A stretch of DNA of 64,000 nt from Pseudovibrio japonicus (GTDB taxonomy: Bacteria; Pseudomonadota; Alphaproteobacteria; Rhizobiales; Stappiaceae), in the NCBI RefSeq assembly GCF_014651595.1, contig NZ_BMXE01000001.1, positions 868,001 to 932,000 on the forward strand, written 5' to 3'. Position numbers and translations under genes: made by a program. Every line of letters starts with the position of its first letter. The stretch's first letter is position 1. Below are positions 43,317 through 48,753 of this stretch, piece after piece. The notes below the pieces were generated by a model that saw only the letters and a program-made list of their open reading frames with translations, had not been told where the DNA came from and did not search any database.

Positions 43317-43403
43317 CCTGAATCGCAATTTACTGAACACCCCCCAACAATGAACAATCAAAGTGCGGGGTGCTCTTCGGTCCAGAACCCAGAAAGAGAC
43401 ATC

Positions 43404-44342
43404 ATGACATCAGTGACCATACGGGGCGGGACAGGCGGCTCCGATAGTGTGTTGCATGGCGTGTTGTTGATGGTGTTCGGGTTGCTCATTCTTTCGAGCA
43501 CTGATGGGGTGGTGAAGTATCTTTCCGAGTTTTTCTCACCATTAACCATCTCCTTTTTTCGATTTTCCGTGCAGCTTTTCATCATTCTGGTGATTGCACT
43601 GTTTCAGAAACGCAGCTGGTACAGCCTACTCAAAGAAACCACCCTTCCGCTGTTCTGCCGCGGATTGCTGTTGGCGCTGGGATCAGTCTTTGTCGTCTTT
43701 GCCCTGAAGTTTCTGCCGCTGACAGATGCGCTAGCTATCTTTTTTGTGCAGCCGGTCATTCTGGTGGTGTTGTCTGCCGTCCTCCTGAAGGAACGGGTTG
43801 GTCCGAAACGCTGGTTAGCAGTTTTGATCGGCTTTGCGGGTGTTGTTGTCATCATGCGGCCGGGCACAGGTGTGTTCCATCCGGCGAGCCTGCTCATGCT
43901 GGCAGCCGCGTTCACATTTGCCTGCTATCTCATTTTGACGCGGAAGCTCTCCGGGCAAGCCTCGCAGCTGGCGATCCAGTTTGCGACCGGGTTTGCCGGG
44001 ACCATCCTGATCCTGCCGATCATCATCTACGCGGGGCTGAGTGGCTTTGGCGGCGATCTGATCATTGCAGATCAAACTGCCAGTTTCACATTGCCTGTTT
44101 TGTTTCTGTTTTGCCTTGGCGGAGCCGGTCTGTTTGCGCATGTTCTATTGGTCAAAGCCTTTGAAAGAGCGCCTGCTTCGGTTCTTGCGCCGATCAATTA
44201 CGTGGAGATTATCTCTGCAACAATCATCGGGTACCTGGTCTTCAACGAGATCCCGGATGAGTTTGTTTGGTTGGGAGTTGGCCTGCTGATTTGTAGTGGC
44301 CTGATACTGGCGCATGCGGAGCGAAAGCCGTCTCGCACATAA
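43404..44342 (+). CDS. EamA family DMT transporter (first of tandem pair)
   Basis: The 312-residue integral membrane protein has ten predicted helices in two EamA repeats. Segments such as LPLTDALAIFFVQPVILVVL and ERAPASVLAPINYVEIISATI are typical of the RhaT/EamA exporters. The ATG at 43404 has AAAGAG upstream; an ATG at 43350 is less likely. The next gene is a clear paralogue. Substrate unknown; such proteins export metabolites such as amino acid derivatives or S-adenosylmethionine. Confidence 0.82.
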   Translation: MTSVTIRGGTGGSDSVLHGVLLMVFGLLILSSTDGVVKYLSEFFSPLTISFFRFSVQLFIILVIALFQKRSWYSLLKETTLPLFCRGLLLALGSVFVVFALKFLPLTDALAIFFVQPVILVVLSAVLLKERVGPKRWLAVLIGFAGVVVIMRPGTGVFHPASLLMLAAAFTFACYLILTRKLSGQASQLAIQFATGFAGTILILPIIIYAGLSGFGGDLIIADQTASFTLPVLFLFCLGGAGLFAHVLLVKAFERAPASVLAPINYVEIISATIIGYLVFNEIPDEFVWLGVGLLICSGLILAHAERKPSRT

Positions 44343-44504
44343 TGTTGAGGGGCAGAACAGGTATTCTTTAGATAACCGCACTGAATAGCTTCAGGCCAAC
44401 GGATTGTTTTGGTTGCACGAAACGATAGCAAGTGCGTCAATATGGACACCTACCCGTAGCTCTGGCTCTGATATGTCAGCGTGCCCCCAGATTTCGAGAA
44501 CAAC

Positions 44505-45479
44505 ATGACGACAACAACGGTCTCGACAGACAGTCATACCTCCAATGCCGGATTGCATGGCATCCTGTTTATGATTGCCGGCATGTCGCTGGCGCCTTTG
44601 ATGGACGGTACAGCCAAATACCTCAGCGCGTTCATTTCACCAGTCGAGGTCTCTCTCGGGCGTTTTTTCTGTCAGGCCCTGATTGTTCTTTTGGTTGCTG
44701 GTTTCATGGGGCGCTCCTTTGGCTCTCTGATTAAGGAAGTCAACCGCATTCAACTGGTGCGCGGAGCATGTCTGGCGGTCTGTTCGATCTTCTTTTTCAG
44801 CTCTCTTAAGTACATGCCGCTTGCCGACGCAATTGCGATCTTCTTCGTACAGCCGATGATTTTGACAGTACTATCCGCTGTTGTATTGAAAGAGAAGGTG
44901 GGCGTTCGCAGGTGGGCTGCTGTTGTGGTCGGGATGATTGGTGCGCTGATCATCATTCGCCCAGGATCAAGCGCGTTGGGGTGGCCTGCCCTGTTGCCAC
45001 TGGCGGCGGCAACGTCTTTTGCTGTCTACCTTGTTTTGACGCGCAAACTTTCAGGCAGCGTTTCTCTGCTTGGCACCCAGCTTGCAGCTGGCATTGCTGG
45101 CGTATTGACGCTCACGCCATTGGTGGTTCTTGCCAGCTTTCTGGGATTTGAGGGTGCATCGTGGACCACACCGGAACTATCTCACCTGCCATTGTTCATT
45201 CTGATGGGCATTATCTCGTTCTTCGCGCATGGCTTTATTGTTCAGGCGTTTGACCGTGCGCCTGCATCCGTCCTTGCTCCGCTCGGCTACATCGAGATCA
45301 TCAGCGCCACAATCGTTGGCTATGTTCTGTTTGGGGACATTCCTGACATGTTTGTATGGCTGGGTGTTGCTCTGATTGCAGGCGGCGGGCTTTACATTGC
45401 GCATCGGGAGCGGACCGCCACAAAGCGCCAGGCGCTGAGCGAAGAGCTTGTCGAGAATTCACCGAAGCGACATTACTGA
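44505..45479 (+). CDS. EamA family DMT transporter (second of tandem pair)
   Basis: The 324-residue protein has the same ten-helix architecture as the preceding gene and shares stretches such as ADAIAIFFVQP, LTRKLSG and DRAPASVLAPLGYIEI. The pair therefore arose by tandem duplication. The ATG at 44505 is preferred to the GTG at 44481. Two different copies next to one another suggest either different substrates or a paired function. The two open frames lie 162 bases apart. Confidence 0.82.
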   Translation: MTTTTVSTDSHTSNAGLHGILFMIAGMSLAPLMDGTAKYLSAFISPVEVSLGRFFCQALIVLLVAGFMGRSFGSLIKEVNRIQLVRGACLAVCSIFFFSSLKYMPLADAIAIFFVQPMILTVLSAVVLKEKVGVRRWAAVVVGMIGALIIIRPGSSALGWPALLPLAAATSFAVYLVLTRKLSGSVSLLGTQLAAGIAGVLTLTPLVVLASFLGFEGASWTTPELSHLPLFILMGIISFFAHGFIVQAFDRAPASVLAPLGYIEIISATIVGYVLFGDIPDMFVWLGVALIAGGGLYIAHRERTATKRQALSEELVENSPKRHY

Positions 45480-45593
45480 GGCTTAAGAGGCGCCTGCCGG
45501 CCTTCTGAATAATTGCTTCTGGCCCTGATAATATTGAGCTTTGTTGTCAGAGCCCCTTTATTCCTTGCATGACCGCTGCTAAAAGCACTCATT

Positions 45594-45683
45594 ATGTTAG
45601 CCAAGTTTGAAAATAACAGGACTGCTCCTTTGACCTCTTTCAAGGTGTGCCAATTTCGAATTATTGGCCCGGCCTTCAGTTGA
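45594..45683 (+). CDS. Candidate ileS leader peptide with tandem Ile codons
   Basis: The 29-codon open frame runs ATG (45594) to TGA (45681). Its last part encodes QFRIIGPAFS, with two adjacent ATT codons at 45660-45665, 16 bases ahead of the stop. Upstream of the ATG there is no clear Shine-Dalgarno site. However, an in-frame TTG at 45630 has AGGA eight bases ahead, giving 17 codons. A hairpin overlaps its end and a terminator-like hairpin follows. These suit a ribosome-mediated attenuator sensing Ile-tRNA charging. Coding function is inferred from these features; only two regulatory codons is fewer than in classical leaders. Confidence 0.4.
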   Translation: MLAKFENNRTAPLTSFKVCQFRIIGPAFS

Positions 45684-45712
45684 GACGCCCGTCGGCGCCC
45701 TGAAGTACCGGG
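45668..45712 (+). promoter_or_regulatory. Hairpin over the end of the leader peptide frame
   Basis: CCCGG (45668-45672) and CTTCAG (45674-45679) pair with CTGAAG (45700-45705) and CCGGG (45708-45712). This gives an 11-base-pair interrupted stem with a 20-base loop. The loop holds CCCGTCG (45688-45694), which can also pair with the 3' arm of the downstream terminator. Confidence 0.5.
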
Positions 45713-45722
45713 AGACCTCCAA

Positions 45723-45746
45723 CCGTCGCAGAGGCGGCGGGTTTTT
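45723..45746 (+). terminator. Candidate attenuator terminator upstream of ileS
   Basis: CCGTCGC (45723-45729) pairs with GGCGGCGG (45733-45740, one G-U pair) around AGAG, followed by G and five T residues. Because ileS starts 74 bases later, this would end transcription prematurely. The CCCGTCG upstream (45688-45694) competes for CGGCGGG (45735-45741) by seven base pairs, a possible antiterminator. Confidence 0.45.
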
Positions 45747-45819
45747 CAAGCTTGCGCAATTTCTTGCGCTTTACCAGATGCCTATGGGCAAACAGATGCC
45801 CACATAAGCGGACTGCCAA

Positions 45820-48753
45820 ATGACCGATACTATGAGCCGCGATTATTCGAAAACGCTCAACCTGCCTCAAACCGATTTCCCAATGCGGGCGGGCCTTCCA
45901 AAGAATGAACCCAAGATCCTTGCCAAATGGGCAGATCAGGACCTTTACAAGGCGCTGCGTGAGCAATCCGCAGGCCGCCCAAAGTTCATTTTGCATGATG
46001 GCCCTCCCTATGCGAACGGCAACATCCATATCGGCCATGCGCTGAACAAGACCTTGAAGGACATCATCAACCGCTCCATGCAGATGCAGGGCTTTGATGC
46101 GAACTATGTTCCTGGCTGGGATTGTCATGGTCTGCCGATCGAATGGAAGATTGAAGAGCAGTACCGCAAAAAAGGCAAAAACAAAGACGCTGTTCCAATC
46201 AACGAGTTCCGCAGGGAATGCCGCGAGTTTGCGGATAAATGGGTTGATGTTCAGCGCGAGGAATTCAAACGTCTGGGCATTGAAGGTGACTGGGATAACC
46301 CATACCTGACCATGCGCTACGACAGTGAAGCTGTGATCGCGAACGAACTGATGAAGTTTGCGACCAGCGGTCAGCTGTATCGTGGTTCCAAGCCGGTTAT
46401 GTGGTCCATCGTTGAAAAGACCGCGCTGGCTGAAGCGGAAGTGGAGTATGAAGATCATACCTCCCACACCATCTGGGTGACCTTCCCGGTTGTTTCCGGC
46501 AATGAAGCGTTGATCGGCAAGAAGGTGGTGATCTGGACAACCACTCCTTGGACCATCCCTGCAAACCGCGCGATCTCCTTCTCTCATGACATCAGCTATG
46601 GCATCTACAAGGTGACCGAGGCTGCTGAGGACAACTGGGCGAAGGTTGGCGAAGAATTCATCATTGCTGACAAGCTGGCTGAGTCTGTCTTTGGAGCGTC
46701 CCGCGTTGATGCTTATGAGCGTGTTTCTGACGTCGATGTGAGCACAATCGAGTACTGTGCGCACCCGTTGCGCGGTGCTGAAGGTGCTGGCGATTACTTC
46801 GACTTCAACGTGCCTATGCTTCCTGGTGAGCATGTGACTGACGACGCCGGTACAGGCTTTGTGCATACGGCGCCGGGTCATGGTCAGGAAGATTTCCAGA
46901 TGTTCCTGGAACACCGTGAAGCGTTTGCAAAAGCTGGCACCGAGCAGGTTCCGATGACCGTTCAGCCGGACGGGTCTTACTACCCGCATGTGCCGCTGTT
47001 TGAAGATAAGTACATCCTTGACCGCAAAGGCAAGGAAGGCTCCACCAACAAGGCAGTTATCGAAAAGCTGGCCGAGGTTGGCGGGCTGATGGCGCGTGGC
47101 CGCGTAAAGCACTCCTACCCGCACTCCTGGCGCTCTAAAGCTCCTTTGATCTTCCGGAACACACCGCAGTGGTTTGTTTACATGGACAAGGAACTGTCTG
47201 AAGAAGCAAAAGGCGACACTCTGCGCGCCCGCGCTCTGAAGGCGATCTCCGAGACACGCTTTGTCCCTGCCACCGGCCAGAACCGCCTGAACGCGATGAT
47301 CGAAACCCGCCCTGACTGGGTACTTTCCCGTCAGCGTGCCTGGGGTGTGCCGATCACCGTGTTTGTGAACAAGGAGACCGGCGAGGTTCTCAAAGACGAG
47401 GCCGTCAACCAGCGCATCTTTGACGCTTTCCAGAAGGAAGGCGCAGACGCATGGTTTGAAGAAGGCGCAACACAACGCTTCCTTGGTGATGCATATGATG
47501 CTGCCAACTTCGAAAAAGTGACGGACATCCTCGACGTCTGGTTCGATTCCGGTTCTACCCACGCATTCTGTATGGAGCGCCGCGAAGACCTGAACCCACA
47601 CCGTAAGGGTCTGGGTGGCGAAGACTACGTTCTATACATGGAAGGCACTGATCAGCACCGTGGCTGGTTCCACTCTTCCCTGCTGGAAAGCTGTGGCACA
47701 CGCGGTCATGCACCGTACGATGCTGTGATCACTCATGGTTTCACCATGGATGAGCAGGGTCGCAAGATGTCCAAGTCTTTGGGCAACACTGTTGCGCCTC
47801 AGGACGTCATCAAGCAGTACGGTGCCGATATCCTGCGTCTGTGGGTTGGTTCTGTTGACTATGCGGAAGATCAGCGCCTTGGCCCTGAGATCATCAAGAC
47901 CAATGTTGATGCTTACCGCAAGATGCGCAACACGCTCCGCTTCATGCTCGGCTCTCTTGCCCACTATGAAGGTGAGGAAGTTGCTCTTGAAGATATGGAT
48001 GAGCTGGAACAGCTGATCCTGCATCGTCTGGCTGAGCTGGATGTACTGGTTCGTGACGCATATAATGCGTTCGACAGTAAACGCATCTTCTCCACCCTGT
48101 TCAACTTCATGATTGTTGAGCTATCAGCGTTCTACTTCGACATCCGTAAGGATGCGCTGTATTGCGATGCGCCTTCTTCCAAGAAACGCAAAGCCTCTCT
48201 TTATGTGCTTGAGCAGTTGTTCCGTCACTTGACCATGTGGCTGGCTCCAATCCTGCCATTCACCATGGAAGAAAGCTGGTCCTACCGATATGGTGAACAA
48301 GCAACCTCGGTTCATCTGCAGCAGTTCCCTGAAGTTTCCTCTGCATGGAGAAACGACGAACTGGCAGCGAAATGGAGCAAGGTTCGTGCGGTTCGCCGTG
48401 TGATCACGGGTGCTCTGGAAATTGAACGGCGTGAAAAGCGGATTGGTTCTTCCTTAGAAGCCCATCCAACGGTTTACGTTTCCGACGCGGACCTGATGGC
48501 TGCTCTGAATGGTCTGGACATGGCGGAAATCAGCATCACCTCCCAGTTGAACCTGTCTTCTGACAGTGCGCCGGAAGGTGCGTTCACTCTGGAAGATGTG
48601 GCTGGTGTAGGCGTTGTGCCGGGCCTGGCTGAGGGTAACAAGTGCGCGCGCTCCTGGAAGATCCTTCCAGAAGTTGGCACGGATGCTGAATATCCAGAGC
48701 TGACCTTGCGCGATGCAAATGCTATGCGTGAACTGGACAGCACTGCTGTCTAA
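45820..48753 (+). CDS. ileS: Isoleucyl-tRNA synthetase
   Basis: The 977-residue class I synthetase charges tRNA-Ile. HIGH is at residues 70-73 ([11 protein letters not shown]) and KMSKS at residues 649-653. It has the CP1 editing domain between them ([16 protein letters not shown]) and WGVPI and WFDSG motifs. The C-terminal Zn-ribbon found in E. coli IleS is reduced: CARSWK remains but the usual four-Cys pattern is not obvious. The ATG at 45820 gives [20 protein letters not shown]. lspA begins nine bases after the stop. Confidence 0.97.

Follow-up and report, generated by a model that had tools for sequence, protein, structure and literature searches.

A conserved CGA-ATT-A codon context and hairpin before ileS: a probable codon-programmed amino-acid gauge in Alphaproteobacteria

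INTRODUCTION

Ribosome-mediated attenuators are known from the trp, his, pheS and ilv systems, and in the T-box leaders of ileS and leuA one specifier codon picks the amino acid. The trpL leader of Sinorhizobium is reported to be leaderless (PMC10117765). Nearest to the element treated here is uORFC-8-2, the cysS leader of Rhodobacterales, likewise an upstream ORF of an alphaproteobacterial aminoacyl-tRNA synthetase gene, with cognate codons and a paired region around them; in the available text it has two tandem Cys codons and a U run in its consensus, and it is described for one order and one gene (PMC8632094). Ribosome profiling in Caulobacter names an 'ileS leader CDS', CCNA_03934, a small CDS before ileS in the same class; the likeness is one of name and position alone, and the available part of that report names it without codon, hairpin, footprint or mechanism (PMC4117421). 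Term searches of the open-licence literature, within the passages they returned, gave no description of the element, the cysS attenuator being the closest (PMC8632094).

Stem-loops of dnaX and HIV whose stem begins at +12 were reported to strongly hinder the binding of aminoacyl-tRNA to the A site (Bao and colleagues, PMC8861025; PMC7282821). According to the available sections of the first report, the hindrance tolerates a stem one base further away, not two, in dnaX a spacer of five bases leads to a stem of 11 bp, and extending the stem by six pairs removed the pausing effect (PMC8861025). In yeast, CGA is reported to be read via I-A wobble, and codon pairs led by CGA are slow (PMC6379720).

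The window analyzed here is a stretch of 64,000 nt of Pseudovibrio japonicus (contig NZ_BMXE01000001.1), in which a ribosome-mediated attenuator had been predicted before ileS. We consider it likely, at roughly three chances in four, that 45594-45712 is an amino-acid sensor read by the ribosome before ileS, and that the same module with CTT serves leuA. Judging from its sequence, the element is probably a codon-programmed amino-acid gauge. Compared with uORFC-8-2, it uses one codon in the context CGA-NTT-A, has no general U tract, and occurs in many families and before several targets.

RESULTS

The leader locus before ileS in the window

The locus comprises the following parts, all on the + strand.

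45557..45562, +, predicted -35-like hexamer TTTATT, 17 nt before the -10-like hexamer, from sequence
45580..45585, +, predicted -10-like hexamer TAAAAG, 8 nt upstream of the leader ATG, from sequence
45594..45683, +, leader ORF MLAKFENNRTAPLTSFKVCQFRIIGPAFS, probably leaderless, 29 codons, ATG at 45594 and TGA at 45681-45683
45657..45663, +, CGA-ATT-A, a fixed Arg codon, the putative sensing Ile codon and then A, with CGA proposed for the P site and ATT for the A site
45663..45667, +, five-base spacer from the putative sensing codon to the stem, its first base shared with CGA-ATT-A
45668..45712, +, hairpin H1, CCCGG(C)CTTCAG / CTGAAG(TA)CCGGG, conserved, with covariation across the class in its compact form
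45723..45746, +, second, terminator-like hairpin H2 with T5, partly kept within the genus and not a feature of the class
45820..48753, +, ileS, isoleucyl-tRNA synthetase, the downstream gene (TIGR00392, E 4.7e-245)

The original prediction had named a short frame, an ATT pair, H1, a terminator-like hairpin with a T tract and a seven-base pairing, and all of these are present. The ATT ATT pair of the leader ORF occupies 45660-45665, and the leader stop codon lies between the two arms of H1. H2 consists of CCGTCGC/GGCGGCGG at 45723-45740, with T5 at 45742-45746, and CCCGTCG at 45688-45694 is able to pair by seven bases with 45735-45741.

The predicted promoter sits upstream of the leader and does not place a start site downstream of 45746, a possibility raised together with the original prediction. 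Its -35-like hexamer is a weak consensus match that the promoter scan did not report, and CTTTATTCC in that region does not vary among the 10 genus sequences. The -10-like hexamer is unchanged in the same ten and, since it lies 8 nt before the leader ATG, transcription is predicted to start at or adjoining that codon. This geometry is nearly that of the ileS transcription start of Methylorubrum, for which the available text of a dRNA-seq study gives TTCCCC, 17 nt, TAGAAG, 7 nt and A, and places the start 150 nt ahead of ileS (PMC9320726). As for the two start codons proposed earlier, the ATG at 45594 is borne out by its presence in 10 of 10 aligned genus sequences, in frame in 9, and the TTG at 45630 is not needed. 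One locus (L007) carries a 23-nt tandem duplication in the leader that puts the usual ATG out of frame, with a later ATG in frame, and is a natural test of the leaderless start.

Judged by folding energy alone, the two hairpins are unremarkable (91 nt, z -0.45, with 62 of 200 shuffles folding as well); the 230-nt leader gives z -2.13 (3 of 200 shuffles), and it is the comparative data that decide. Rfam returned no match at gathering scores in the window or in 15 loci, and a weak OmrA-B match (18.5 bits vs a cut-off of 40) was set aside as chance. Between H2 and ileS (45754-45802) lie two further hairpins, GCGCAA/TTGCGC, which frays at its top in the genus, and TGGGCA/TGCCCA, which is identical in all 10 genus sequences; the repeat CAGATGCC near them makes an alternative fold possible. 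Tandem EamA-family (DMT-type) transporter genes (43350-44342 and 44481-45479) are found upstream of ileS.

The element is spread across Alphaproteobacteria

In a DNA search, the stretch around the hairpin is all that matches in more distant relatives. Defined as an in-frame CGA-ATT-A, four bases and a GC-rich hairpin (CCCG...CGGG), the element is spread across the Alphaproteobacteria. The exact 21-nt pattern, searched over 84,980 species genomes, occurs in at least 118 stretches, and 108 of the 118 matches listed are co-oriented with ileS and lie 78-226 nt ahead of it, for 8 the fetched locus ends before ileS, and 2 are elsewhere. Judged from 80 titles of the 118 listed, they are mostly from Rhizobiales and Acetobacteraceae.

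A second set was anchored on ileS and came from a search in which ileS was found in 353 of 386 genomes; its 110 upstream regions (30 automatic loci plus 80 places fetched among the best-scoring matches) are not a random draw. CGAATTA, four bases and CCCG with a hairpin are found in 47 of these 110 regions across the class, and 63 lack a clear copy. The filter had passed 51, from which L223, L233 and L285 were removed as chance and L226 as degenerate. CGAATTA itself is present in 47 of 47 element-bearing leaders, a figure to be read with the filter, which allowed at most one or two mismatches in 12 positions. Two degenerate ileS leaders are seen outside the 47: L226 has CAA-ATT-G and a good hairpin, L195 CGA-ATC-A and a weak one. 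In a pattern search, the ATT element occurs in 131 of 386 genomes, often not at ileS, and a reversed control pattern gave 16 matches in total (summed by eye).

With the first base of CGA taken as +1, ATT lies at +4 to +6 and the first base of the stem at +12, exactly 11 nt on, and this spacing is constant. It is identical in 46 of the 53 CGAATTA occurrences in the ileS-anchored set; six of the other seven are ribF coding sequence or chance by eye, and the seventh (L216) is a true copy that was mis-measured.

The leader frame is conserved and probably leaderless

Frame statistics were taken from 177 non-redundant copies, from which L305, L308, L309, L310, L315 and L318 had been removed as chance; copies less than 110 nt from the locus edge were skipped, and those at least 80% alike were collapsed. 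The CGA frame has an open in-frame ATG in 174 of the 177 (24 and 13 for the other two frames), and a stop comes within 60 nt in 153 (59 and 31). From this conservation of frame we infer that the leader ORF is translated. A run of regulatory codons is absent: there is one constant codon, and the next is mostly Thr or Ser unless it is Ile (ATT 29, ATC 42, AGC 34, ACC 23, ACG 20, and others). The two adjacent Ile codons originally proposed as the sensor give way to one fixed Ile codon, followed by ATT in only 29 of the 177.

TTGAC occurs 50 times at 33-39 nt before the in-frame ATG vs 45 times over the rest of the range from 10 to 100, and for out-of-frame ATGs, taken as a control, once at 33-39 nt vs 17 times elsewhere. 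A -35-like word was found for 87 of the 174 copies, and the base profile built from those 87 has T and A at -13/-12 and C at -1, with no Shine-Dalgarno sequence before the ATG. As the ATG stands where the promoter would put the 5′ end and is not preceded by a Shine-Dalgarno sequence, the leader ORF is probably leaderless.

H1 covaries in register with the codon

Covariation was scored on 33 copies of equal length, picked by their CCCG and CGGG ends and used because the 3′ arms of short hairpins came out of MAFFT misaligned. Pairing in the stem is 93.0%, and its two-sided changes number 31 vs 9.8 in shuffled copies, with 0 of 500 shuffles reaching that number; the four basal pairs, on which the copies had been selected, are invariant, and only the inner six pairs are informative. 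Slid versions of the stem pair in 32-64% in the same 33 copies. Among Ile-codon hairpins of the ileS-anchored set that lie in register and have at least 8 perfect pairs, CGAATTA is present in 20 of 22 among the carriers and in none of the 11 from the other regions, and a stem of this regularity is found in 20 of the 47 carriers. The H1 loop varies freely across the class. Compact copies have stems of 10-11 bp, and those of Rhizobiales and of the window are longer and interrupted.

In these comparisons the frame, the CGA-ATT-A heptamer and H1 are conserved far beyond chance. The core of the original prediction, an Ile codon in a leader peptide before ileS that would be read by the ribosome, is upheld by the conservation of frame, codon and hairpin in many genomes of the class and by the exchange of this codon for a Leu codon before leuA; when the regions upstream of ileS were aligned, the Ile codon proved conserved and H1 covaried in relatives.

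The codon follows the gene

Codons and genes were counted for copies with a closed hairpin of -9 kcal/mol or better, with genes sought within 1.4 kb. The 156 ATT copies include 104 before ileS, 40 before a gene for a small ACT-like protein and none before leuA, with no sought gene for 5, where the ileS count is inflated by the ileS-anchored retrieval. Among the 21 CTT copies, 14 precede leuA (2-isopropylmalate synthase), 1 precedes the ACT-like gene, none precedes ileS, and 6 are without a sought gene. Comparing ileS plus ACT-like with leuA (144/0 for ATT and 1/14 for CTT), Fisher's test gives 3.6e-19, with the kinship of the genomes ignored and with a LeuA query and an ACT-like model built from the same loci. 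The eight codons before CGA show the same preference: Ile makes up 13.3% in ATT leaders vs 4.2% in CTT leaders, and Leu 25.0% in CTT leaders vs 8.3% in ATT leaders.

When the codon was left free, 79 of the 150 listed matches were parsed, and they comprised ATT in 28 (22 with a well-paired stem), CTT in 4 (4) and, in the remaining 47, 27 codons, with 14 well paired and at most 2 of these per codon. The CTT pattern was found in 29 of 289 genomes and, as a bare pattern, is not above the reversed control (36 listed matches vs about 95, summed by eye). GTT (Val) was found in 2 of 183 genomes, which belong to a single genus, where it is in frame and forms a tandem with a CTT copy before an ACT-like gene; here too the bare pattern is not above the control (2 vs 5 matches, summed by eye), and the Leu and Val versions are set apart from it only by hairpin and gene. 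A TTT (Phe) version was sought and was absent from all 193 genomes searched.

In 8 of the 14 leuA leaders, a second CGACTTA with a second open frame follows 107-164 nt further on (chance about 0.02 per locus), and 3 of these 8 have a stem of 5 or more pairs beginning in the same register. Since the second frames keep CGA-CTT-A, the codon pair itself seems to be the functional unit. At L371, L378, L379, L383, L392, L394, L395 and L396 two Leu leaders thus stand one after the other, and L394-L396 have GGGGGGCTCTCTCGACTTAT in common.

The leuA leaders also bear on a nascent-peptide arrest, in which a ligand would be sensed through the R-I-x-x-P motif of the peptide. R-I/L-x-x-P is indeed common to the copies; however, what follows P varies with the pairing (PAF, PAS, PVL), Arg and Ile are kept as the single codons CGA and ATT, beyond amino-acid identity, Ile becomes Leu with the target gene, and the second leuA ORFs keep CGA-CTT-A without a CCCG hairpin. 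We regard such an arrest as highly improbable. The RNase E site consensus offers another reading, in which GAAUU by the hairpin is a cleavage site in a processing element, or the region is the gene of a free small RNA. An AU-rich single strand does adjoin a stable hairpin, and in the window genome the region ends in a terminator-like hairpin, but the reading frame (174 of 177), the constant spacing and the change from Ile to Leu with leuA are left unexplained, and we give this reading only the slightest chance.

Target genes of the ATT element

The first recognised gene was also determined for 72 copies in 70 loci, and as 40 of the places were fetched by choice, mostly not at ileS, the proportions are not frequencies. 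This gene was ACT-like in 44, ileS in 15 (including L338, where ileS lies more than 1 kb downstream), NTF2/SnoaL-like in 4 and AAA_33 in 3, with none in 6. Three loci (L312, L313 and L314) have one element and then an ACT-like gene directly followed by ileS, and in L302 and L303 the ACT-like gene is followed by citramalate synthase (TIGR00977 for L303). The ACT-like label is weak, with acetolactate synthase small subunit at E 6e-4 in 1 of 4 members scanned, Pfam ACT_5 at E 0.09 in 1 of 5, and a best PDB match at E 0.87, which we take to be an ACT-bearing prephenate dehydratase; the ileS and leuA links are independent of it.

ATT copies also stand before the NTF2/SnoaL-like gene at four loci (L325-L328) and before the AAA_33 ATPase gene at three (L336, L343 and L345), with leader peptides that end in RIxxPA; we know of no isoleucine link for these genes. 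In L334 (154 and 354) and L335 (156 and 356), two ATT elements 200 nt apart precede one ACT-like gene.

Terminators and the output step

The original prediction had the H1 loop switching the H2 terminator. In such a classical trp-type attenuator, CCCGTCG would pair with the 3′ arm of the terminator at 45723-45746, and stalling on Ile codons would lead to antitermination. The pairing and the terminator-like hairpin do exist in the window genome, and H2 keeps its pairing in the genus with a few two-sided changes, but shifting H2 by 3 columns gives an equal score, and its T tract is not maintained within the genus. The loop pairing itself has no two-sided, compensatory changes among ten genus sequences and is broken in three of them (L008, L009 and L010), and across the class the loop is free to vary. 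Nor is a terminator before ileS a general feature: downstream terminator-like hairpins are not enriched over shuffles, with 11 of 130 ileS copies vs 7.5 expected and 0 of 35 ACT-like copies vs 1.2. A trp-type switch is therefore very unlikely on these data.

H1 could itself be the terminator, with a ribosome paused on ATT hindering the lower stem so that starvation leads to read-through. This is suggested by the 35 of 130 ileS copies in which the 8 nt after H1 include at least 4 T, such as GGGTTTTTGG in the Rhizobium loci L036 and L054, and the same holds for 7 of 35 ACT-like copies. Such a tail is absent, however, from 95 of the 130 ileS copies and 28 of the 35 ACT-like copies, H1 in the window is followed by AGACCTCC, and in the register measured in the available reports a stem at +12 can stay folded beside the ribosome (PMC8861025, PMC7282821). 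We consider it unlikely that H1 acts in this way.

The leader stop is reached before the hairpin ends in 99 of 104 ileS copies and 11 of 14 leuA copies and in only 17 of 40 ACT-like copies; in the other 23 of these 40 the leader ORF runs past the hairpin, and in several its frame overruns the next start codon. No common sequence signature of the output step was found among the copies, and this step probably differs between lineages, for example a T-rich tail in Rhizobium vs an ORF past the hairpin at ACT-like genes.

DISCUSSION

Comparison between genomes establishes, at the level of sequence, a frame that reads as translated, a codon context with its spacing, a covarying hairpin and a match between codon and gene. 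What we infer from these is the sensing of charged tRNA, the pause and its sign, and the output step. In our model of a ribosome-read amino-acid sensor, a leaderless mRNA would start at the leader ATG, and the ribosome would read 21 codons and reach CGA-ATT-A. When CGA occupies the P site and ATT the A site, the base of the GC-rich hairpin would lie just at the mRNA entry, so that the residence time on ATT would depend on charged tRNA-Ile. If Ile-tRNA is plentiful, the ribosome would pass, open the hairpin and stop inside it; if it is scarce, the ribosome would wait before the closed hairpin, and ileS expression would be expected to rise. The CTT module would serve leuA in the same manner, and in one genus GTT beside CTT would serve the gene of the small ACT-like protein.

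More specifically, we tentatively propose, as a possibility with less than even odds, a one-codon gauge of charged tRNA in which the +12 hairpin would compete with aminoacyl-tRNA for the A site, CGA would sit in the P site by I-A wobble, and a swappable NTT (Ile, Leu or Val) would set the amino acid. Such a gauge would amount to a T-box counterpart that is modular and translated, would be old within the Alphaproteobacteria, and would control ileS, leuA and a small ACT-like protein tied to isoleucine synthesis. The slowness of CGA is carried over here from yeast to bacteria by analogy. Given the reported result that six added pairs abolish pausing (PMC8861025), the longer, interrupted stems of Rhizobiales and of the window count against the sensor model.

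The likeness to pausing stem-loops such as those of dnaX and HIV gag-pol lies in the stem at +12 and a five-base spacer as in dnaX; compact copies have stems of 10-11 bp (11 in dnaX), and the longer stems are those of Rhizobiales and of the window. Unlike these, the element has no slippery sequence, no frameshift product is proposed, and the A-site codon would carry the specificity. Frameshifting was considered and rejected; the +1 frame is open in the window and closes soon in L010 (by eye).

With trp-type attenuators the element shares a short translated leader, codons for the regulated amino acid and a hairpin at the end of the frame, and it is probably leaderless like trpL; it differs in that no conserved terminator or antiterminator was found and in the use of one codon whose distance to the hairpin is constant. 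A single specifier codon and the same target genes recall the T-box. A T-box proper was rejected, as the window and 15 loci have no Rfam match, the codon lies in a conserved translated frame, and no antiterminator was seen. The element senses like a leader-peptide attenuator, has a specifier like a T-box and a geometry like that of pausing stem-loops, and fits none of these definitions fully.

If our reading is true, the element would represent a widespread control of branched-chain amino acids in Alphaproteobacteria that is absent from Rfam. As the codon changes with the target gene, its specificity can be read from the sequence. The finding suggests a regulatory role for a pausing stem-loop outside frameshifting, and whether a single codon, rather than a run of codons, may report on charged tRNA becomes a testable question.
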